Below, in pieces: positions 22,386-32,730 of a stretch of 64,000 bases of DNA (position 1 is the first letter of the stretch; each line of letters begins with the position of its first letter). This DNA is from Parapedobacter koreensis (GTDB lineage: Bacteria > Bacteroidota > Bacteroidia > Sphingobacteriales > Sphingobacteriaceae), in the NCBI RefSeq assembly GCF_900109365.1, contig NZ_FNZR01000004.1, forward strand, positions 248,001 to 312,000, given 5' to 3'. A program made the translations under genes and the position numbers. The notes under the pieces were generated by a model. It was given only the letters and a program-made list of their open reading frames with translations, ran no database searches and had not been told where the DNA came from.

Positions 22386-22393
22386 CTTTTGAG

Positions 22394-22758
22394 TGGAGTC
22401 GGAGGGATTCGAACCCTCGTCCAGACATGGTACTGTATACGCTTTCTACATGCTTAGCTTCCGTTTCATTGTCGGGAAAGGGAAGGCCGGACGCTTGCCT
22501 ATACCGTTTTCCTTAGTTGCTGTTTCTCGTCGGTTCGTCACAACGCCAAACCAACCAGTTCCGTGATTCGATGCCCCGGATGCTACGCTACGGAACCAAG
22601 CGTGAGCGGGACAAAAGCTAAACTAATTCTAAATTAGGCAGCTAAGGCGTAGTTATTTTCGCCATTTATAAGTCTGAAAGTTGAGATTAAAGCGCCATAC
22701 TCCCAACGCGCTGCATGCTTACATAACCGTCTCCATCCTGTCAATTCCGGTCGACCCC
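22394..22758 (-). ncRNA. ssrA: Transfer-messenger RNA (tmRNA)
   Basis: A one-piece tmRNA of 365 bases that rescues stalled ribosomes and tags their products for proteolysis. The tRNA-like ends pair: GGGGTCG at the 5' end with CGACTCC at the 3' end, and a T arm (AGGG-TTCGAAT-CCCT) lies next to the 3' end. The tag frame inside reads GENNYALAA and stop, as in other Bacteroidota. CCA is not encoded. Its promoter lies at 22776-22806 and its terminator at 22364-22385. Short open frames overlapping the 3' end are artefacts. Confidence 0.96.
22634..22663 (-). other. tmRNA tag-peptide reading frame
   Basis: GGC is the resume codon, and the frame encodes GENNYALAA followed by TAA. With the alanine charged on tmRNA, the tag is AGENNYALAA. 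The C-terminal LAA is the usual protease signal. Confidence 0.95.
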
Positions 22759-22845: not shown

Positions 22846-24138
22846 TCATCGCAACCGCAATGAAACCGCATTTTTATGCGCCTGTAAACCTTCCAATTCA
22901 GCCAACACTTCCACTGTCGGGCCAATGTTTCGTAAGCCTTCGGCCGTGATATGCTGGAATGTGATTTTTTTGACAAATGCATCCACCGATACGCCGGAGT
23001 ACGAGCGGGCATATCCGCTTGTGGGTAAGGTGTGGTTGGTGCCCGAGGCATAATCCCCGGCGCTCTCCGGAGTAAGGTGCCCCACAAAAACCGACCCGGC
23101 GTTGCTGATTTTCCGCAGTAGGGACTGCCACTCGTCCGTCTCGATGATGAGGTGCTCCGGTGCATATCGATTGCTGAATGTAATGGCCTCGTTGAGATTG
23201 TCACATAACACAGCATAGGAGTTGGCAAGGGCCTTTGCAGCGACTGCTGCACGAGGCAGCTGGGTCAATTGGTCTTCCAAAGCGGTCTGAACCCCGTCAA
23301 TCAAGCGTTGGTCAGTACTCACCAATATCGCTTGGCTGTCGGCTCCATGCTCAGCCTGTGCCAGCAAATCGGCTGCAACGTATTCCGGATTGGCCGAGCC
23401 ATCTGCAATGACGAGCACCTCGGAGGGGCCAGCAGGCATGTCGATACTGACACCAGCAAGGGCCTGCACCAAGCTCTTTGCCTTTGTGACGTATTGGTTG
23501 CCAGGGCCAAAAATTTTATCGACCCGGGGTACACTTGGGGTGCCATAAGCCATGGCCGCTACCGCTTGTGCGCCACCGACCAGGTACACCCTGTCGATTT
23601 TAAGCAATTGCAGGCAATAGGCGACATAGCCGTTGATCTTGCCATCTGCCTGTGGCGGTGAGCAAACGACGATTTCTTTGCAGCCTGCGATACGGGCAGG
23701 TACACCGAGCATCAATAGCGTACTCGGCAATACCGCTGAACCACCGGGAATGTACAGCCCCACTTTTTCGATTGGGCGAGGCTCACGCCAGCATTTTACG
23801 CCGGGCATGGTCTCGATGCTCCGTTCTTTGCGCAACTGCGTCTCGTGGAAGCGGTAGATATTAGCAAAGGCAATTTCCAACGCCCGCTGCTGCTCACGGC
23901 CGATAGACGACGCCAAGGCAGCGATTTCATCTGCCGTGAGAAACAGGCGTTCCAATTGGACGCGGTCCAATTTTTGGGCATAAGCCCTGAGTGCGGCATC
24001 TCCATCGGTCTTTACGTCATTGATGATTTCCATCACCACATGATGAACGGCTTGGGAAGGGTCCGCATTACGTGTGAGGAGCTGCTCGTATTCCCGTTCT
24101 TCGAGCAAATAATAGTCGTAAGTCTTTAATATCGACAT
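22846..24138 (-). CDS. hisD: Histidinol dehydrogenase
   Basis: A 430-residue enzyme of normal length. It performs the last two oxidations of histidine synthesis, from L-histidinol to L-histidine, using NAD and zinc. Visible motifs are GLYIPGGSAVLPSTLLM, FGPGNQYVTKAK, DMPAGPSEVLVIAD, LLAQAEHGADSQAILVS with the catalytic Glu-His pair, and the C-terminal GTNHTLPTSGYARSYSGVSVD region. I placed the start at 24138, one base after the hisG stop. An in-frame start 12 codons upstream would overlap hisG. No hisC or later his gene follows; the tmRNA gene lies 88 bases downstream. Confidence 0.96.
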   Translation of the reverse strand: MSILKTYDYYLLEEREYEQLLTRNADPSQAVHHVVMEIINDVKTDGDAALRAYAQKLDRVQLERLFLTADEIAALASSIGREQQRALEIAFANIYRFHETQLRKERSIETMPGVKCWREPRPIEKVGLYIPGGSAVLPSTLLMLGVPARIAGCKEIVVCSPPQADGKINGYVAYCLQLLKIDRVYLVGGAQAVAAMAYGTPSVPRVDKIFGPGNQYVTKAKSLVQALAGVSIDMPAGPSEVLVIADGSANPEYVAADLLAQAEHGADSQAILVSTDQRLIDGVQTALEDQLTQLPRAAVAAKALANSYAVLCDNLNEAITFSNRYAPEHLIIETDEWQSLLRKISNAGSVFVGHLTPESAGDYASGTNHTLPTSGYARSYSGVSVDAFVKKITFQHITAEGLRNIGPTVEVLAELEGLQAHKNAVSLRLR

Positions 24139-24139
24139 A

Positions 24140-24991
24140 TTACATGATGATTTTTTCAACGGGCATGACCACAATACCCTGGGCCCCCGCTGCCCTCAGC
24201 TTATTGATTTTGTCCCAGAAATCCTGCTCAGCAATGACCGTATGCACGGCCACCCAGTTTTCTTCGGCCAATGGTACAATGGTGGGACTTTTGACGCCCG
24301 GAAGCAGACTGATGATTTCGTCGAGGTTGTCACGTTCTACATTGAGGACTACGTATTTGGTTTCGGCAGCACGGAGCACAGATTGGATACGTTGCATAAG
24401 CTCGCGTACCACGGGATTGCTGTCAATACCGTTTTTGCTGATAAGGATAGCTTCGGAAGCCATCACATCAGCAAAAGGCTTCAGGCCGTTGCTCCGGAGC
24501 GTGCCACCGGTAGAGACAATATCAAAGATGGCATCGCTCAGTTCCAAAGCAGGGGAAATCTCCACCGAACCGGAGATGATGCGTATATCGGCTGATACAC
24601 CGTTTTCATCAAGGAATTTCTTTAGGATGGTGGGATAGGAGGTGGCAATGGCCTTTCCATCTAAATCGGCCAACGTCCTCGCTTCACTCTGATTGGGTAT
24701 GGCGATTTTGAGGGTACATTTACCAAATCCAAGCCGTTGGAGATACCGTACATCGGCTTCGGTTTCTGCGATTACATTTTCACCGACAATGCCCAGGTCG
24801 GCAATGCCATCCTGTACGTATTCTGGGATATCATCATCCCGCAAAAACAAGATTTCCAGCGGGAAATTGGAAACCGTCGTAATGAGCGAGCTTTTATAGT
24901 TTTCAAAGTTTAGTCCGCAGTTTTTCAACAACTGCACTGATTTTTCGTTGAGCCTGCCTGATTTCTGGATGGCTATTTTCAGATTCTTCAT
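24140..24991 (-). CDS. hisG: ATP phosphoribosyltransferase, long form
   Basis: A 283-residue enzyme that commits ATP and PRPP to histidine synthesis. It is the long form: an N-terminal catalytic part (KIAIQKSGRLNEKSVQLL, DDIPEYVQDGIADLGIVGEN, DIVSTGGTLRSNGLKPFAD) and a C-terminal ACT-like regulatory domain (about residues 210-283, PTIVPLAEENWVAVHTVI, GAQGIVVMPVEKIIM), where histidine inhibits the enzyme in the family. It does not need the separate HisZ subunit. The gene follows a histidine-rich leader peptide by 141 bases and precedes hisD by one base. Confidence 0.96.
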   Translation of the reverse strand: MKNLKIAIQKSGRLNEKSVQLLKNCGLNFENYKSSLITTVSNFPLEILFLRDDDIPEYVQDGIADLGIVGENVIAETEADVRYLQRLGFGKCTLKIAIPNQSEARTLADLDGKAIATSYPTILKKFLDENGVSADIRIISGSVEISPALELSDAIFDIVSTGGTLRSNGLKPFADVMASEAILISKNGIDSNPVVRELMQRIQSVLRAAETKYVVLNVERDNLDEIISLLPGVKSPTIVPLAEENWVAVHTVIAEQDFWDKINKLRAAGAQGIVVMPVEKIIM

Positions 24992-25086
24992 CCGTATAGT
25001 GATAAATTGCTTTAAGTGGCAATGAAGCTTGCTTGTGAGTAGCGTTCATGCAAGGTTCAATGGGTGTTAAAATTATTAATTATTAG

Positions 25087-25092
25087 AAAAAA
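25087..25092 (-). terminator. U-run of a possible his attenuator
   Basis: Six U in the RNA after CCCCGAUG, between the leader peptide and hisG. A CAUCG segment in the leader could pair with CGAUG to form a weak terminator stem; I could not resolve a better one. Confidence 0.3.
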
Positions 25093-25131
25093 CATCGGGG
25101 TTACAAATTGCTTCACGTAGAAACATACAAA

Positions 25132-25200
25132 TTATACATCGCCGCAAAGGCGATGATGGAAATGTACGCGATGAACAAAAGCAATCTGTATGTTTTCCAT
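25132..25200 (-). CDS. hisL: His operon leader peptide
   Basis: A 22-codon frame that reads MENIQIAFVHRVHFHHRLCG and DV. Four of seven consecutive codons (residues 10, 13, 15 and 16) are His, the hallmark of a histidine attenuation leader. It starts 17 bases after a consensus promoter (25224-25255) and ends 140 bases before hisG. The RNA at the His codons contains a seven-base hairpin (CAUCGCC with GGCGAUG, 25137-25155). The start of the frame (plus-strand 25179-25193) can pair either with 25123-25133 or with 25103-25113, each over 11 bases. Stalling at His codons when charged tRNA-His is scarce would choose between these structures. The frame is too short for ordinary gene finding. The control itself is inferred. 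Confidence 0.75.
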   Translation of the reverse strand: MENIQIAFVHRVHFHHRLCGDV

Positions 25201-25223
25201 TAATAATCCACAAAGTTGGTCGG

Positions 25224-25255
25224 CAAATATATAAGGTAAATATGGTCTTTGCAAA
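25224..25255 (-). promoter_or_regulatory. Promoter of the his leader and hisGD
   Basis: TTTG, exactly 20 bases, TATATTTG on the minus strand: a full consensus match. The start would be near 25217, 17 bases before the leader peptide ATG. Confidence 0.75.
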
Positions 25256-25466
25256 TTTTTATCCAAAACGTCCAACCTATTAATATGTAGCAACTCATTG
25301 ATAATTAGTGTCTTTATTGTTTTTAGTTAATTTGTAATGAGATAAATTGTTTTAAATACTCAAAAAATGTACTTTGGCTAAAAAAAAGTGCACTTCTAAA
25401 GGTACCGCTTTGTGCAGCGCACGGACGGGTTTTTAGTGGTTATGCAAATAACAAGGCGATTACTTT

Positions 25467-27923
25467 ATGGCGAAGGATTTGATTAAACAACAAGAAACAG
25501 ACACGTTAAGCACGACCCAAGTATTAGACGATGGGATACACCATGTAAACAATCCGGTATTGGACTTGCCGGAGATTGTCAAAAATTACTTAGGGCCGGT
25601 TGCTGGATTCCACCAAGAAAACAATAACTATTATTTTACCGATGGGGGTGCAAGCGTCGAGATTAAAGTGGTGAGTGACGAAATCATCCGGGTCCGGTTG
25701 GCCCCCAAGAGCCAATTTTTGGAAGACTTTTCTTACGCCGTGCCACAGTCAGACCAGCATGTAGCGGTATATACTTTTGAGGAAGATCAGGAGGCCTATC
25801 GGGTAAAAACCAATACCGTGACGTGCGTTATCCGTAAAGCTGATTTTTTGATAGCTTTCGAAGATCGCGAGGGCAAGGAATACAACAAGGATTATTCGCC
25901 GATGCACTGGGAAGAAAATCCCGATTTCGGTGGCTATTATGTGTACTGCACCAAAGTAGCGCAAGCCAATGAGGCATTTTATGGTTTGGGAGACAAACCC
26001 ACCCACCTGAATGTCCGTGGAAGACGGTTTGCCAATTGGAATTCGGATACGTATTCATTCCAGTTTAACCAGGATCCCTTATACAGGAGCATCCCTTTTT
26101 ATATTGGGCTACACGAGGGTGATGCATATGGCATCTTTTTCGACAATACGTTCAAAACCTATTTTGACTTTGCTGCGGAGGCTTATGACCAAACGAGCTT
26201 TTGGTCCGAAGGCGGGGAACTTCAATATTATTACATCCATGGTCCGCATATGATGGATGTAGTGAAGCGTTATCACAGCATTACCGGTACCCATTATTTG
26301 CCTCCTTTGTGGGCATTGGGTTTCCATCAGTGCCGCTGGAGCTACTACCCCGAAAGCAAAGTGAGAGACCTCGCCCGGAATTTTCGCGAACGTCAGATTC
26401 CATGTGATGCCATTTACCTGGATATCGACTACATGGATGGCTACCGTTGCTTTACGTGGAACAAGCGCTATTTTCCGGATCCGAAGAAAATGATCAAGGA
26501 ATTGGCGGATGATGGCTTCCATACCGTGGTCATCATCGATCCGGGCATCAAGGTAGACGAAAATTATTGGGTATTCAAGGAAGGCAAGAAAAACCGCTAT
26601 TTCTGCCGTAGGGGCGACGACTATTTCATGGAAGGGTATGTATGGCCGGGTCGTTGCCAATTTCCGGATTTCACCAATCAGGAAGTTCGCGAGTGGTGGG
26701 GAGGATTGTTCAAAGGCCTGGTAGAAGCCGGGGTGGCTGGTGTGTGGAATGATATGAACGAGCCTGCGGTATTTGGTAGGGGTACTTTCCCCAATGACGT
26801 TCGCCATAATTTCGACGGTTATCGTGGATCGCACCGGAAAGCGCACAATGTATATGGTATGCAGATGGTGCGTGCTACCTATGAAGGCTTGAAGAACCTG
26901 TTCCAGAAAAAACGTCCATTTACCATTACACGTGCTGCGTATGCGGGTACGCAACGGTATGCTTCCGTTTGGACGGGTGACAATGTAGCCACATGGGATC
27001 ACCTGCGCCTTGGCGCGCTGCAACTTCAACGGCTCTCGGTATCGGGCATGCCGTTCTGTGGCACGGATATCGGCGGGTTCAGTGGCGAGCCGGATGCCGA
27101 GCTGTTTACCCGCTGGATACAATTCGGGGTATTTTCTCCGTTTATGCGGGCGCACTCGGCTGGGGATACCGCAGAGCGCGAGCCCTGGAGCTTCGGGCCG
27201 GATTATGAGGCGCTTAACCGGAAATTTATCGAATTGCGGTACCAACTGCTTCCGTACATCTATTCGGTATTTTGGGAGCACACCAAGTACGGTTTTCCTA
27301 TCTTGCGCCCCATCACCATGGTGGAACAGCGCTTGGATACCAACATCCCGCGCGAAGAAGAATTCTGCTTTGGCGACAAGCTATTGGTATCACCCGTCTT
27401 GTACCAAGGACAACAACGGAAAATGGTCTACCTGCCCGCAGGTGGGTGGTATTATTATTGGGATGATAGCTCATTTGAAGGGGGCAAAGAGCATGAAGTA
27501 AATACACCGATGGATGAGATGCCCCTTTTCGTCAGGGCAGGGACGGTGCTGCCCGAATACCCGGTAATGCAGCACGTCTATGAAAAGAAAATAGAGTCGC
27601 TCAAATTGTTGGTCTACTATACGGCGCAAGAAGCCAATTCGTATATGTACGAGGACCATGGCGATACGTTTGCGTATGAGCAACAGATTTACTTGGAGAA
27701 AAAATTCGTGGTAAAGGGAGCCGCGAAAAGCTTAAAAATCACGCAGTATATTGACGGCTTGTATTCCGAGCGATACGATACATATGATCTGCATTTGGTG
27801 GCGCTACCATTTAAGGTCAGTCGTGTAATGGTAGATGACAAGCCCGCTATAGCGACACAAGATAACCAAGGCCGGTATGTGGTAAAGGTACCGAAGGATT
27901 TCAAAAACATTATCGTTACCTGA
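25467..27923 (+). CDS. GH31-family alpha-glucosidase
   Basis: An 818-residue glycoside hydrolase of family 31 that releases glucose from alpha-linked oligosaccharides. An N-terminal beta-sandwich (about residues 45-270) is followed by the catalytic barrel. The nucleophile Asp429 is in VWNDMNEPAVFG and the acid/base Asp505 in WTGDN; other family motifs are GFHQCRWSYYP, DAIYLDIDYMDGY and GTDIGGFSGEPDAELFTRW. C-terminal beta domains follow. There is no signal peptide, so the enzyme acts in the cytoplasm. It stands 48 bases ahead of glgB, in a glycogen/maltodextrin operon, and probably trims alpha-glucans. The substrate is inferred from the context. Confidence 0.93.
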   Translation: MAKDLIKQQETDTLSTTQVLDDGIHHVNNPVLDLPEIVKNYLGPVAGFHQENNNYYFTDGGASVEIKVVSDEIIRVRLAPKSQFLEDFSYAVPQSDQHVAVYTFEEDQEAYRVKTNTVTCVIRKADFLIAFEDREGKEYNKDYSPMHWEENPDFGGYYVYCTKVAQANEAFYGLGDKPTHLNVRGRRFANWNSDTYSFQFNQDPLYRSIPFYIGLHEGDAYGIFFDNTFKTYFDFAAEAYDQTSFWSEGGELQYYYIHGPHMMDVVKRYHSITGTHYLPPLWALGFHQCRWSYYPESKVRDLARNFRERQIPCDAIYLDIDYMDGYRCFTWNKRYFPDPKKMIKELADDGFHTVVIIDPGIKVDENYWVFKEGKKNRYFCRRGDDYFMEGYVWPGRCQFPDFTNQEVREWWGGLFKGLVEAGVAGVWNDMNEPAVFGRGTFPNDVRHNFDGYRGSHRKAHNVYGMQMVRATYEGLKNLFQKKRPFTITRAAYAGTQRYASVWTGDNVATWDHLRLGALQLQRLSVSGMPFCGTDIGGFSGEPDAELFTRWIQFGVFSPFMRAHSAGDTAEREPWSFGPDYEALNRKFIELRYQLLPYIYSVFWEHTKYGFPILRPITMVEQRLDTNIPREEEFCFGDKLLVSPVLYQGQQRKMVYLPAGGWYYYWDDSSFEGGKEHEVNTPMDEMPLFVRAGTVLPEYPVMQHVYEKKIESLKLLVYYTAQEANSYMYEDHGDTFAYEQQIYLEKKFVVKGAAKSLKITQYIDGLYSERYDTYDLHLVALPFKVSRVMVDDKPAIATQDNQGRYVVKVPKDFKNIIVT

Positions 27924-27971
27924 CGGTAGTTCATTTGGTATCACCACTGATAACTAACAATCCCATTCGCT

Positions 27972-30002
27972 ATGCAGCACACGGTAGAAAACTATTCATT
28001 GTTCACTGATTTTGACGTTAGCCTCTTTCGGGCAGGCAAGCATTACAAACTTTATGAAAAGTTTGGTTCACATGCCCTATTCCACGAAGGGCGATCCGGT
28101 ACTTACTTTGCCGTGTGGGCACCCAATGCCGAAGCTATTTCAGTAGTCGGCAATTTCAACGGATGGAATCCCTATTCGCATGCCTTGCATGTGCGGTGGG
28201 ACGGCTCGGGCATCTGGGAAGGCTTCATCCCCAATATCGGTGTAGGTGAGCTATATAAATACCGTATCCGGTCGTACCAGGGGGAAACGTTGGAAAAAGG
28301 CGATCCCTTTGCACTCCAATGGGAGCAATCGCCGGGAACGGCGTCAGTGGTCTCCACGACATGGTATGAATGGAAAGATGAAGCATGGATGCGTGCAAGA
28401 CACGAGCGTAATGGCCTCAACAAGCCTGTCTCCGTCTACGAGATGCACCTGGGTTCTTGGATACGTAGTCCCGACGATCCGGACAAGTTGCTGGACTATC
28501 GCGGTATCGCGGATAAGCTGGTACCCTATATCAAGGATGCTGGATTCACCCATGTGGAATTATTGCCCGTCATGGAGCATCCGTATTATCCATCCTGGGG
28601 TTACCAAATCACCGGTTATTTCGCCGCTTCTTCGCGTTATGGGTCGCCGCAGGACTTGATGTACCTTATTGAGCAATTGCACCTGAATGATATCGGCGTG
28701 TTATTGGATTGGGTGCCTTCCCATTTTCCGGGGGACGCGCATGGGCTGTACCGTTTTGATGGCACGCATCTATATGAGCATCAGGATCCCCGCCAAGGTT
28801 ACCATCCCGATTGGAGTTCTTACATCTTCAATTATGGACGCAATGAGATACGTTCATTTCTCATCAGCAACGCCATCTTTTGGTTGGAAAGGTACCATGC
28901 GGATGGCCTGCGTGTAGACGCCGTAGCCTCGATGCTGTACCTCGATTATTCGCGCAAGGAGGGCGAATGGATACCCAATGAATACGGTGGCAGGGAAAAC
29001 CTGCAAGCCATTGGTTTTCTTAAAGAATTGAATGAAGCAGTGTACCAGCATTTCCCGGATGTACAGACCATCGCCGAAGAGTCTACTTCGTGGCCGGGCG
29101 TGAGCCGCCCGGTTTACAGTGGCGGCTTGGGTTTTGGCATGAAATGGATGATGGGTTGGATGCACGATACATTGCAGTATTTCAGCCGCGATCCTTTGTT
29201 CCGGCAGCATCATTATGGGCAGCTCACCTTCAGCATGTTGTATGCTTTCCATGAAAATTTCATGCTACCACTTTCGCACGATGAAGTCGTACACGGCAAA
29301 GGATCCATGGTCTATAAAATGCCCGGTGATGAATGGCAGCGGTTTGCCAACCTGCGCGCACTATACCTATATATGTATACACATCCAGGCACCAAATTGT
29401 TATTTATGGGGTGCGAATTTGGGCAGACAGCCGAATGGAATTATAATCAGTCCCTGGATTGGCACTTAGTGCAATACGAACCACATCAAGGTGTTTTTGA
29501 GTTTATCAAATCACTGAATCGTCTATACCGCAACGAGCCGGCGCTTTATGAGCACAGCTTCAGTCCAACGGGTTTTGAGTGGGTAGAGGGCGGTGACGCG
29601 TACAACTCCGTATTGGCCTATGTAAGGAAGGGGATTAGGCGGGAAGACGATGTGTTGGTTGTTTTAAATTTAACACCGATTGTACGTTATTTTTACCGCT
29701 GTGGTTTACCTTCACATGGGGAATGGATAGTGTTGCTCAACTCGGATGATCGGGGTTATTACGGCAGCGGCATTGAACAGTCTGCGGTGCAAGCAGAGCC
29801 TATTCGCTGGATGAACCAAGATTGGTCAGCCCAGCTCACCTTGCCACCGTTGGGAGGCCTCGTGCTAAAGCGGAATCCTGAAAGGCAGGGGGGCAGCACG
29901 GAAGTTCAACAAGAAGTAGTAGCGCCGGTAAAGGCTATACAAGCGAGCAAACCCGCTAAAGCGCGACGCAAAGTAAAAAAAGATCCGGATAACGAAGCAT
30001 GA
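27972..30002 (+). CDS. glgB: 1,4-alpha-glucan branching enzyme
   Basis: A 676-residue GH13 enzyme that makes the alpha-1,6 branches of glycogen. An N-terminal CBM48 domain (about residues 35-130, TYFAVWAPNAEAISVVGNFN) precedes the barrel. Nucleophile Asp316 is in GLRVDAVASMLYLDYSRKEG, the acid Glu369 in IAEEST, and the HDE motif in LPLSHDEVVHGKGSM. The C-terminal 40 residues are an extension rich in Lys, Ala and Pro (KPAKARRKVKKDPDNEA) that is not part of the enzyme core. It stands four bases before glgA. Confidence 0.95.
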   Translation: MQHTVENYSLFTDFDVSLFRAGKHYKLYEKFGSHALFHEGRSGTYFAVWAPNAEAISVVGNFNGWNPYSHALHVRWDGSGIWEGFIPNIGVGELYKYRIRSYQGETLEKGDPFALQWEQSPGTASVVSTTWYEWKDEAWMRARHERNGLNKPVSVYEMHLGSWIRSPDDPDKLLDYRGIADKLVPYIKDAGFTHVELLPVMEHPYYPSWGYQITGYFAASSRYGSPQDLMYLIEQLHLNDIGVLLDWVPSHFPGDAHGLYRFDGTHLYEHQDPRQGYHPDWSSYIFNYGRNEIRSFLISNAIFWLERYHADGLRVDAVASMLYLDYSRKEGEWIPNEYGGRENLQAIGFLKELNEAVYQHFPDVQTIAEESTSWPGVSRPVYSGGLGFGMKWMMGWMHDTLQYFSRDPLFRQHHYGQLTFSMLYAFHENFMLPLSHDEVVHGKGSMVYKMPGDEWQRFANLRALYLYMYTHPGTKLLFMGCEFGQTAEWNYNQSLDWHLVQYEPHQGVFEFIKSLNRLYRNEPALYEHSFSPTGFEWVEGGDAYNSVLAYVRKGIRREDDVLVVLNLTPIVRYFYRCGLPSHGEWIVLLNSDDRGYYGSGIEQSAVQAEPIRWMNQDWSAQLTLPPLGGLVLKRNPERQGGSTEVQQEVVAPVKAIQASKPAKARRKVKKDPDNEA

Positions 30003-30006
30003 TGCT

Positions 30007-31455
30007 ATGGACAATGAGATAATCAGCCACACTTCCAAACCTATCATCCATTTAAGTGCCGAATGCTATCCGGTGGCAAAGGTTGGCGGCCTTGGGGACG
30101 TGGTCGGCGCGTTGCCCAAATACCTGCAAGCAGCCGGGCTATACACTTGGGTGGTCATGCCCTGGTACAACAAGCCGTTCGTCCAGCAACATGACTTTGA
30201 AGTCGTGTACAGCGGCGCTTTTTATCAAGGATCAAGACCATTGACGATAACGGTGTATAAGGAGAAAGACAACGTATTGGGCTTTGGGCTATACCTGATT
30301 AAAATTCCGGGATTGTTGGATAGGGACGAACCCTATGGATATGCCGATGAAAGCGAACAGTTCATCGCTTTCCAGCATGGCTTCCTGCACTGGCTTACGG
30401 AGACCGGTATTATGCCTGATGTGGTGCACTGCCATGACCACCACACCGGGCTCATTCCATTTTTGATGTACTACGGCGAAAAATTTGCTTCCCTGCGGCA
30501 TGTACCTACGGTAGCTACCGTGCATAATGGGCAGTACCAAGGGTGGATGAACTGGAACCAAGCGATTTTATTGCCTGCTTTTGACACGTGGAGATGGGGA
30601 TTATTGGATTGGGATGGGATTATCAATCCGTTGGCGGCGTTGATAAAATGCTGCACCGTGTTTACCACCGTGTCAGAAGGATACCTTCAGGAATTGATGG
30701 AGCAAGCCAACGGGCTGGAACGCCTATTCGCGATGGAACGTGCCAAAAGCGTAGGTATCGTCAATGGCATCGATACCACGATATGGAACCCAGGGGAAGA
30801 TACCATGCTGCATCGAAACTATCACATTACCGATGTGCAATCCGGCAAACGAGCCAATAAGGTGTTCCTGTGCGATGCATACGGATTGGATGCCGAAAAG
30901 CCGTTGCTGGCCTATATCGGTCGGTTTGCCGGTGAGAAAGGAGCTGATCTTTTGCCGGAAATCATTGAAAACATATTGGGCGATGAGCGTGTTGAACTAA
31001 ATATTATGGTATTGGGATCGGGAGACCCACAGGTGCAGTCGGCCATGGCTGATTTAGCAGCGCAATATAAAGGGAGGCTGGGCGTATACATCGGTTATCA
31101 AGAAGATTTATCGCATCGCATCTATGCGGCCGCAGATTTCCTGATCATGCCTTCGCGGGTGGAGCCTTGCGGGCTGAACCAGCTTTATTCCATGCGATAT
31201 GGCACCATTCCCATTGTGCGAAAGACGGGCGGCCTGCGGGATACCGTACCGGATATCGACGAGCCGGATGGATACGGCATCACGTTTATCAATGCCATTG
31301 CCGCTGACGCGGTAGCTGCCGTATACAGGGCTTTGGAATTATATAACGATAAAAGCAGGATGCATCAACTACAAGAACAAGTCATGCGGCTTGATTTCTC
31401 CTGGGACAAATCGGCAGCTAAGTATATGGAAATTTACCAAAATATAACCGCATAA
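30007..31455 (+). CDS. glgA: Glycogen synthase (ADP-glucose)
   Basis: A 482-residue GT5 glycosyltransferase that extends alpha-1,4-glucan from ADP-glucose. The nucleotide-sugar motif KVGGLGDV begins at Lys25. Others are HCHDHHTGLIPFLM, TVHNGQYQGW, FTTVSEGYLQEL, NGIDTTIWNP and the acidic SRVEPCGLNQLYSMRYGTIPIVRKTGGL region with the catalytic Glu. The long insertion in the N-terminal half (residues about 60-110) fits the bacterial form. Glycogen synthases are regulated allosterically, but nothing in the sequence shows how here. The gene lies between glgB and glgC with almost no spacing. Confidence 0.95.
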   Translation: MDNEIISHTSKPIIHLSAECYPVAKVGGLGDVVGALPKYLQAAGLYTWVVMPWYNKPFVQQHDFEVVYSGAFYQGSRPLTITVYKEKDNVLGFGLYLIKIPGLLDRDEPYGYADESEQFIAFQHGFLHWLTETGIMPDVVHCHDHHTGLIPFLMYYGEKFASLRHVPTVATVHNGQYQGWMNWNQAILLPAFDTWRWGLLDWDGIINPLAALIKCCTVFTTVSEGYLQELMEQANGLERLFAMERAKSVGIVNGIDTTIWNPGEDTMLHRNYHITDVQSGKRANKVFLCDAYGLDAEKPLLAYIGRFAGEKGADLLPEIIENILGDERVELNIMVLGSGDPQVQSAMADLAAQYKGRLGVYIGYQEDLSHRIYAAADFLIMPSRVEPCGLNQLYSMRYGTIPIVRKTGGLRDTVPDIDEPDGYGITFINAIAADAVAAVYRALELYNDKSRMHQLQEQVMRLDFSWDKSAAKYMEIYQNITA

Positions 31456-31458
31456 ATT

Positions 31459-32730
31459 ATGATTAAGCACAATGTGATTTCTGTCGTATTGGGAGGGGGG
31501 AAGGGTACCCGTCTTTATCCACTGACGCACCAGCGTTCCAAGCCTGCTGTTCCCATAGCGGGCAAGTATCGGTTGGTGGATATTCCCATTTCTAATTGCC
31601 TCAATTCGGGCTATAACCGGATTTTTGTATTGACGCAATACAATTCGGCCTCATTGAATTCGCACATCAAAAACACTTACAATTTCAGCGTGTTCAGCAA
31701 AGGGTTTGTGGAGATTCTGGCTGCCGAGCAGACCAACGAAGGAGAAAGATGGTATCAAGGTACTGCCGATGCTGTACGGCATTTGCAGCGCTACCTGCAA
31801 CACCATGATTATGAACACTTGCTCATCCTTTCAGGCGACCAGCTGTATCAAATCGATTTCCAGGAAATGATTGAGGCCCATATCGAAACCGGGGCGGAAA
31901 TCTCGGTAGCGACCATTCCGGTCAACGCCAAAGACGCCACGTCTTTCGGCATCCTCAAATCCGATGAGGGAGGAAACATCACGTCATTTATCGAGAAACC
32001 GAATAGCTCGCTGCTGCCGCCATGGGAGTCTGAAGTAGACGAAGATATGAAAGCAATGGGCAGGGTGTACCTGGCATCGATGGGTATTTACGTATTCAAC
32101 AAAAATATACTGAAACAAATTCTTGAGGAAAGCGAAGGCGTGGATTTCGGTAAGGAACTACTACCTGAAGCAATCGGGAACTACAAAATACATAGCTATC
32201 AATATCCAGGGTACTGGACAGATATCGGCAACATTGATTCTTTTTTCGAAGCCAATATTGGGCTTACGGATGATATCCCGCAATTCAACCTGTTTGATAG
32301 GAACACGATATTTTCCCGCGCCCGGATGCTGCCGCCGTCCAAAGTATCGGGCACTACCCTTGACAAAGTGGTCATAGCCGATGGTTGCATCGTGGCCGCG
32401 GAGCACGTCGAGCGCTCGGTGATTGGTATCCGATCGCGTATCGGCACAGGTTCTATCATCAAAACCACCTACATGATGGGGAGTGATTTTTACCAGACCC
32501 TGCATGAGATTGAAGACGCCCGGGCTAACGGTTTTCCACTTGTTGGTGTCGGCGAAAATTGCTACATCGAAAATGCAATATTGGATAAAAGCTGCTGCAT
32601 CGGAGATAATGTGCGTATCACGGGGGGGACGCACCTTGCCGATGGCGATTTCGATACCCATGCTGTCAGGGATGGTATCGTAGTCGTAAAAAAGCGGGCC
32701 GTGTTACCTGCGGGTACGGTCATTGGGTAA
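31459..32730 (+). CDS. glgC: Glucose-1-phosphate adenylyltransferase
   Basis: A 423-residue enzyme that makes ADP-glucose, the substrate of GlgA. The N-terminal nucleotidyltransferase motif is GGGKGTRLYPLTHQRSKPAV, followed by LVDIPISNCLNSGYNRIFVLTQ, the GDQLYQIDF metal region and the Glc-1-P binding stretch FIEKP. The C-terminal part from about residue 290 is the left-handed helix (VVIADGCIVAAEHVERSVIG, CCIGDNVRITGG) that carries allosteric control in the family. It closes the GH31-glgB-glgA-glgC operon; mnmE begins 22 bases later with its own possible promoter. Confidence 0.96.
   Translation: MIKHNVISVVLGGGKGTRLYPLTHQRSKPAVPIAGKYRLVDIPISNCLNSGYNRIFVLTQYNSASLNSHIKNTYNFSVFSKGFVEILAAEQTNEGERWYQGTADAVRHLQRYLQHHDYEHLLILSGDQLYQIDFQEMIEAHIETGAEISVATIPVNAKDATSFGILKSDEGGNITSFIEKPNSSLLPPWESEVDEDMKAMGRVYLASMGIYVFNKNILKQILEESEGVDFGKELLPEAIGNYKIHSYQYPGYWTDIGNIDSFFEANIGLTDDIPQFNLFDRNTIFSRARMLPPSKVSGTTLDKVVIADGCIVAAEHVERSVIGIRSRIGTGSIIKTTYMMGSDFYQTLHEIEDARANGFPLVGVGENCYIENAILDKSCCIGDNVRITGGTHLADGDFDTHAVRDGIVVVKKRAVLPAGTVIG

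Follow-up and report, generated by a model that had tools for sequence, protein, structure and literature searches.

How does a short histidine-rich reading frame upstream of hisG act on the his genes of Parapedobacter koreensis? In the window, the 64,000-nucleotide stretch of P. koreensis DNA analysed as a whole, hisG is preceded on the minus strand by a leader ORF (MENIQIAFVHRVHFHHRLCGDV) that carries His at codons 10, 13, 15 and 16 (Table 1). A preliminary description of this DNA had listed a 22-codon frame with His at four of seven consecutive codons and a distance of 140 bases to hisG. Both are borne out by the sequence: the four His codons fall within codons 10-16, and 140 nt separate the leader stop from the hisG start. 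The promoter before the leader was identified by TTTG/TAnnTTTG, which we take to be the Bacteroidota promoter consensus. The ORF had been placed 17 bases after a full consensus promoter. The promoter is indeed present, but the -7 box lies 23 nt from the ATG, and 17 nt would be right only for a count that begins at a start site some 6 nt past this box. All 76 distinct leaders, that of P. koreensis included, have TAnnTTTG at 20-90 nt upstream of their ATG.

The his genes are split in the P. koreensis genome. hisG and hisD stand alone, and hisB (PF00475) is located on another contig (C6:70000-76500) beside ORFs that were read from their translations as putative hisC, hisH and hisA. This hisB-bearing cluster lies behind unrelated genes and has no His-rich leader. 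In the related loci L050, L063 and L041, the translations of ORFs past hisD resemble hisC, hisB and hisH, and in L063 and L041 also hisA. Downstream of hisD in P. koreensis, a tmRNA gene occupies positions 22391-22758 of the minus strand (RF00023, 125 bits). Beside the leader, a divergent plus-strand cluster (25467-32730) starts with an alpha-glucosidase-like gene that scores below curated cut-offs, followed by ORFs that, judged from their translations, resemble glycogen branching enzyme, glycogen synthase and glucose-1-phosphate adenylyltransferase.

Table 1. Features of the hisG leader region of P. koreensis, in window coordinates
Feature	Position	Strand	Description	Basis
Promoter	25224..25255	minus	Bacteroidota type: TTTG from 25255, 20 nt, TATATTTG at 25231-25224	sequence
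P1a, 5′ arm	25201..25208	minus	directly before leader start codon; pairs with 25085-25078	predicted fold
P1b, 5′ arm	25191..25198	minus	overlaps leader start region; pairs with 25094-25087	predicted fold
Leader ORF	25200-25132	minus	22 codons, ATG to TAA	sequence
P2a, 5′ arm	25178..25190	minus	leader codons 4-8; pairs with 25114-25102	predicted fold
P2b, 5′ arm	25163..25169	minus	His-codon region; pairs with 25129-25123	predicted fold
His hairpin	25137..25155	minus	rod tip; 5′ arm, His codon 16 and next codons; 3′ arm, ORF end	
Hairpin E (conserved element)	25110..25124	minus	GUUUC-UACGU-GAAGC; 3′ arm also pairs with leader ORF (P2a)	
P1b and P1a, 3′ arms	25078..25094	minus	anti-leader-start segment	predicted fold
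Apparent relic of ancestral hisG start	about 25046-25060	minus	UUGAACC..., now a 4-codon frame ending TGA	comparison of sequences
hisG	24140..24991	minus	ATP phosphoribosyltransferase	NCBIfam TIGR00070, 194 bits; TIGR03455, 107 bits
hisD	22846..24138	minus	histidinol dehydrogenase; ATG 1 nt past hisG stop	NCBIfam TIGR00069, 536 bits

The preliminary description had proposed to look for conserved His codons and covarying stems upstream of hisG in relatives. We compared the best 80 of 490 hisG loci, which come from Parapedobacter, Olivibacter, Daejeonella, Pedobacter, Mucilaginibacter and others. A leader was called when a short ORF upstream of hisG contained at least 3 His codons within 8 codons or, in a later run, within 9. 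In 78 of these 80 relatives a His-rich leader ORF precedes hisG, so the clustered His codons are kept; the exceptions are L049, which has only two His codons together, and L090, which is covered by only 20 nt upstream. Because of this conservation a chance origin of the leader is excluded, and the histidine leader before hisG is confirmed as real. A second set of family loci, partly from the same species, gave a leader in 34 of 36. A covariance model, R1, built from 50 leaders, matches 119 of 151 family genomes. Of the 133 family genomes with hisG, 119 have the match in the same orientation as hisG and at most 298 nt before it, one of them only at E 0.08. Elsewhere in family genomes R1 has four matches, three at E > 0.05 and a strong one on a second contig of G098. 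Ten of the 14 hisG genomes without an R1 match still have a His-rich leader, and an eleventh has a weak one (G132, L021). No credible leader was found in G008, G067 and G122; a distant ORF with 3 His codons in G008 satisfies the rule by the letter. Among 239 other genomes of the class R1 has no strong match and seven weak ones (best E 0.0011). Another genus of the same family (L217-L220) has a His leader of a different kind (MITKQHIALHHHTHLHHGHHHHCA and related sequences); it lacks a strong terminator, and a long-range complement between leader and hisG is conserved (GCAGCGAGUUUUA / UAAAACUGCGG).

Classical attenuation requires a terminator. Our test asked for a T-tract behind a short hairpin with an energy of -8 kcal/mol or better, and it was positive in only 5 of the 78 leader-bearing family loci among the best 80 of 490; all five hairpins overlap the leader ORF itself. 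In the second set it was passed by 3 of 34 leaders. The strict test gave no terminator for the P. koreensis leader (L001), and a consensus terminator scan returned one terminator-like site there, the His hairpin within the ORF with the tail TATAATTTGT. As a general feature the His hairpin was rejected as a terminator, its tail being rarely a U-tract (the terminator test is passed by 5 of the 78 loci), and U-tract enrichment is small (best 8-mer with 6.38 T compared to 5.88 in shuffled sequences, 74 loci). Outside the family hisG was found in 244 genomes, and 82 of these loci were examined (22 returned, 60 chosen for spread). A His leader is present by our rule in 71 of the 82; a few of these ORFs are probably fortuitous. 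A strong intrinsic terminator, for example AAACCCGTTTGAGTACATCAAACGGGTTT followed by TTTA, accompanies 52 of the 71. The family therefore has the sensor but not the usual effector. No Rfam family was matched at gathering by any of 18 other-family loci, and these textbook-looking his attenuators outside the family seem to be uncatalogued. Ten loci of one family outside the class (L143, L170, L176, L178, L188, L191, L194, L195, L201 and L202) have leaders in which many His codons are spread out, several of these leaders with a GTG start. Our test found no terminator in them, and they perhaps represent another terminator-free type.

For the original proposal of his attenuation this means that the leader peptide with His codons stands, as do mutually exclusive covarying pairings (see below), but that classical attenuation as written is not supported, since the usual terminator is absent. 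The locus could still be a classical attenuator whose terminator escaped the test, or transcription could end by Rho between leader and hisG. Regulatory codons in a leader peptide are indeed what classical his attenuators have, and an excerpt of one study weakly suggests a Rho-dependent stop for mycobacterial cys leaders that have no obvious terminator (PMC1262725). However, the test that found no short terminator in 73 of the 78 family loci was positive in most of the other-family leaders, and the gap of 52-88 nt between leader and hisG in 71 of the 78 is short for Rho. We regard both variants as improbable.

An RNA of 251 nt covering the P. koreensis leader folds better than 200 of 200 dinucleotide shuffles (z -4.15). 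The alternative pairings that had been claimed for it are present, as 25195-25183:25133-25121 by reading and as 25190-25178:25114-25102, the latter with 13 bp in the predicted fold. In this fold a single rod is built from P1a, P1b, P2 and the His hairpin stacked on one another, with the leader ORF as its 5′ arm. The conserved element past the leader stop has the form UAUGUUUC-UACGY-GAAA in the majority of species; Pedobacter, Pelobium and kin have GUUUUG-UACGU-CAAAAC or GUUUUG-UACUU-CAAAAC. A regular expression for it is met in 74 of the 78 leader-bearing loci of the best 80 of 490 and in 31 of 34 leaders of the second set; outside the family it is met in none of 71. The idea that the element is a general motif was dropped: the P. 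koreensis genome contains one exact 18-base copy and four at 3 mismatches, and a reversed-pattern control gave two. Its 3′ arm pairs with the leader ORF in different forms (P2a; UUUUCAC with GUGAAAC, UUUUGAC with GUCAAAAC, UUUUGAA with UUCAAAAC). Further downstream, a segment before hisG complements the leader start region including the start codon, for example AUGAACGG with CCGUUUAU in Mucilaginibacter and AAAUGAAAAG with CUUUUCAUUU in Pedobacter.

Pairing within a species was compared to pairing across species in 25 family representatives below 75% similarity. The leader start pairs with the post-leader region of its own species at -14.75 kcal/mol and with that of other species at -10.33 kcal/mol, a difference reached by 0 of 1000 permutations. 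In 62 representatives of other families no species-specific pairing of the leader start was observed (-12.33 vs -11.99; 174/1000), and within our family the leader body showed no own-species signal with the post-leader region (506/1000). The region upstream of the promoter gave 10/1000 with the post-leader region, which indicates a mild same-genome composition effect. In a simple duplex test the pairing of P. koreensis itself is near background (-10.8 vs -10.2 kcal/mol cross-species). The same was observed for P. luteus L031 (-11.3 vs -9.5 cross-species, shuffled -12.5), for Olivibacter L037 and L042 and for L045, L083, L087, L098, L100, L103 and L109.

Mapping 45 segment pairs in 22 family representatives resulted in four that were reached by 0 of 2000 permutations. 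These are P1a (preAUG:post2), P1b (AUG:post1), P2 (ORFmid:element) and H0, a 5′ hairpin between the 5′ end and the pre-AUG segment that competes with P1a. The next best pairs were the AUG segment with hisG codons 13-30 (28/2000), mid-ORF with the hisG start (46/2000) and the AUG segment with the element (70/2000). A pairing of the element with the hisG start, seen by eye in Mucilaginibacter, was dropped (elem:cds1 own -4.63, permuted -4.67), in a test that is weak as both segments vary little. The two arms of hairpin E covary (1/5000 with 19 representatives, 0/5000 with 34), and the 3′ arm of the element also covaries with leader codons 3-10, that is P2a (0/5000 in both sets). P2b is weaker, with 135 and 72 of 5000 for the ORF against the pre-element segment and 270 and 182 of 5000 for the later part of the ORF. 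One strand is thus kept complementary to two partners, as is characteristic of a switch. As the correlations go with clades, they represent several events, fewer than 19 to 34 independent ones.

In a column-wise analysis 93.9% of cells are paired for E. For the His hairpin 80.8% of cells are paired over 62 sequences, with one pair A-U in 31 and G-C in 28 and the outermost pair unpaired in 45 of the 62. The columns of alignment A1 for the His hairpin and E together have a covariation score above 500 of 500 shuffles; a change on both sides was counted for only 2 of their 12 pairs, fewer than the 2.4 that shuffles gave on average. A reading as classical 1:2, 2:3 and 3:4 stems was rejected, as the His hairpin has no second downstream partner (of 2000 permutations, 1983 reached the value for HisHP:post1 and 1742 that for HisHP:post2). 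Covarying stems are thus found upstream of hisG, as mutually exclusive pairings that the permutation tests show to be kept in the family. As far as comparison of sequences can tell, the leader, the two mutually exclusive folds and the absence of the usual terminator are supported.

To these folds ribosomes were added in silico, in the 71 close-spaced loci of the best 80 of 490. The leader start region has 18.9 pairs in the free RNA, 0.8 with a ribosome starting the leader, 11.3 with a ribosome on the first His codon and 17.9 with a ribosome at the stop; in other families it has 4.2 in the free state (68 loci). A stalled ribosome would thus hinder the rod and a finished one let it close. Since a ribosome on the first His codon leaves about 11 of 19 pairs in the equilibrium folds, a switch of this kind would need to work kinetically. 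In partition-function folds the openness of the hisG start region (-20..+12) was the same whatever the ribosome state (0.59-0.62 unpaired), and no masking was seen, which speaks against the model below.

Together these data suggest the following model. The His-rich ORF would be translated as soon as it is transcribed. When histidyl-tRNA is short, the ribosome should stall on the first His codons, within the 5′ arm of the potential rod. The rod could then not close, hairpin E would form instead, and H0 could keep the region before the leader start. With plentiful histidine the ribosome would finish and leave, allowing the rod of P1a, P1b, P2 and His hairpin to form; it would bury the start codon of the leader and, where the spacing is close, also the stretch just upstream of hisG. 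Closing of the rod would presumably lower expression of hisG (and hisD), because histidine shortage is the condition under which the operon should be expressed. The general statement, a histidine-sensing leader-peptide switch with a rod armed by the ORF that is particular to Sphingobacteriaceae among the sampled genomes, has in our estimate as much for it as against it.

The spacing and start codon of hisG bear on what the rod may act on. In the close-spaced loci, P1a′ lies directly upstream of hisG. hisG starts with TTG (43) or GTG (28) in 71 of the 72 loci within 90 nt of the leader and with ATG in all seven loci beyond 90 nt (both from the best 80 of 490). This count includes L049, which has no called leader, among the 72 and leaves out L090; five starts were extrapolated from alignments that begin later. 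ATG is also the hisG start in P. koreensis and in four further loci at 117-122 nt. The start-codon contrast follows two clades and therefore reflects few events. We favour initiation of hisG translation from a weak start codon as the main output, rather than transcription termination. The phylum generally makes little use of Shine-Dalgarno sequences. Our fullest proposal is that an ancestral terminator-type attenuator became terminator-free. Its rod, with the ORF as one arm, would hide the leader start and the pre-hisG region, and translation of hisG from its weak UUG or GUG, without a Shine-Dalgarno sequence, would need the rod to be kept open by a ribosome stalled on His codons. In this complete form the proposal is tentative, and we consider it somewhat more likely to fail in some part than to hold.

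P. koreensis and five further Parapedobacter species differ in that hisG is displaced, with an ATG start 140-319 nt past the leader. As hisG of P. koreensis starts with ATG at 140 nt, the output may be different there. At the old place the displaced loci retain (A)UUGAAACC or a close form, an apparent relic of the ancestral hisG start that is recognized by comparison with P. indicus L033 and P. defluvii L038. The relic appears to be kept in P. koreensis, L031, L032 and L034-L036, where hisG now lies some 70-250 nt further downstream; for the rest, the spacers show hardly any alignment by eye. L031 has an in-frame ATG also 12 codons upstream of the aligned hisG start. A mobile repeat as the origin of the P1′-hisG spacer was dropped, as no second copy was found in the genome. 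Whole-leader folds of the six displaced species, P. koreensis included, still pair the leader start region (10-28 pairs). With hisG at such a distance, a purely local translational effect does not explain these species.

The retained pairing would be expected if the rod were itself an unusual intrinsic terminator, with the leader ORF as its 5′ arm, a U-rich stretch behind P1b′ and the stalled ribosome as the antiterminator. That relatives in other families use terminators also fits, and in long-range folds a U-rich 8-mer directly past a helix of at least 6 bp is found in 12 of 25 representatives, compared to 19% of shuffles. However, in nine of the 25 not even a 4-bp helix precedes a U-rich stretch, eight of these nine having no site at all, and in many species the base helix consists largely of A-U pairs. 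The pairing of P1a′ is conserved, yet P1a′ follows the U-stretch and would be missing from a terminated RNA. Of the 62 other-family representatives 40 were put through the same search at 6 bp, and 35 of them pass, most with short strong hairpins. A terminating rod is therefore a possibility that we think unlikely, though it deserves serious consideration. A further explanation would be that the rod only shuts off translation of the leader or protects the 5′ end of the mRNA, with histidine control of hisG weak or absent. P1b covers the leader start codon and no effect of the folds on the hisG start was seen, as this explanation would predict. On the other hand, a mere stability element would not need clustered His codons, whereas their cluster is kept in divergent leaders (78 of 80 among the best 80 of 490), and two competing folds are both kept. 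We give this explanation little credence and continue with translational control of hisG as the preferred reading.

Leader-peptide attenuation is a textbook mechanism that is thinly documented outside Proteobacteria and is mostly viewed as a terminator switch. In the window, Rfam at gathering gave only the tmRNA and a tRNA, with no match to RF00514 or the T-box; at E<=5 the region 24900-25470 had no his-leader match and one chance match on the other strand. For the phylum, the view that such attenuation is little described needs some correction. Excerpts of a 2021 study of Flavobacterium psychrophilum mention ‘strong clues’ that leader peptides attenuate amino-acid operons, and also a conserved 5′ element in front of hisG in Flavobacteriaceae, without an Rfam hit (PMC9723704), and classical-looking leaders are common outside the family in our own sample (52 of 71). 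Leader-like sORFs are mentioned for Bacteroides in a passage of another paper (PMC7366714). Leader peptides without obvious terminators, including the LEU element, are described for Actinobacteria (PMC1262725, excerpt), and according to part of a further article the terminator of some attenuators is replaced by a structure that hides the ribosome-binding site (PMC9413887). In literature searches, of which the longer lists were covered at their top, no title listed concerned a his leader in Sphingobacteriaceae, and on this ground we take the leader as a new form of leader-peptide attenuation. Nearly the whole family keeps a His-codon sensor without the usual terminator and has a different, covarying fold in its place. 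Together with the terminator-bearing families it forms a natural pair for asking how a regulatory RNA changes its output. It also raises the question of RNA folds that gate start codons in bacteria that initiate without Shine-Dalgarno pairing.

Several known systems share parts of this arrangement. In translational attenuators of the ermC type a stalled leader ribosome changes the downstream fold, as proposed here; ermC differs in that a drug is sensed and the fold hides the start region of the resistance gene. In distal masking at trpL, the ribosome-binding region of the leader is bound by a segment far downstream, which resembles the pairing with the leader start side in our family, but trpL keeps its terminator. 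The leaders of other Bacteroidota families share the gene, the position and the His-rich ORF (71 of 82 loci). They differ by a strong hairpin with T-tract in 52 of 71, by the absence of the family element and by the lack of species-specific leader-start pairing. The LEU element of Actinobacteria, in the portion of the text that describes it, likewise combines a leader peptide of regulatory codons before a biosynthetic gene with competing folds, one of which reaches the ribosome-binding region of the gene; there, the run of leucine codons pairs with the leuA Shine-Dalgarno box and a pseudoknot is formed (PMC1262725). Here, in contrast, the leader start region pairs with a segment before hisG, and start masking was not seen in the folds. 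A further parallel is the enterobacterial hisL leader (RF00514), which also has a short His-rich ORF before the his genes and competing folds between which a stalled ribosome would choose. Compared to hisL, the family leader does without the usual terminator, includes the leader start region in the alternative helix and uses the ORF itself as the 5′ arm of the rod.
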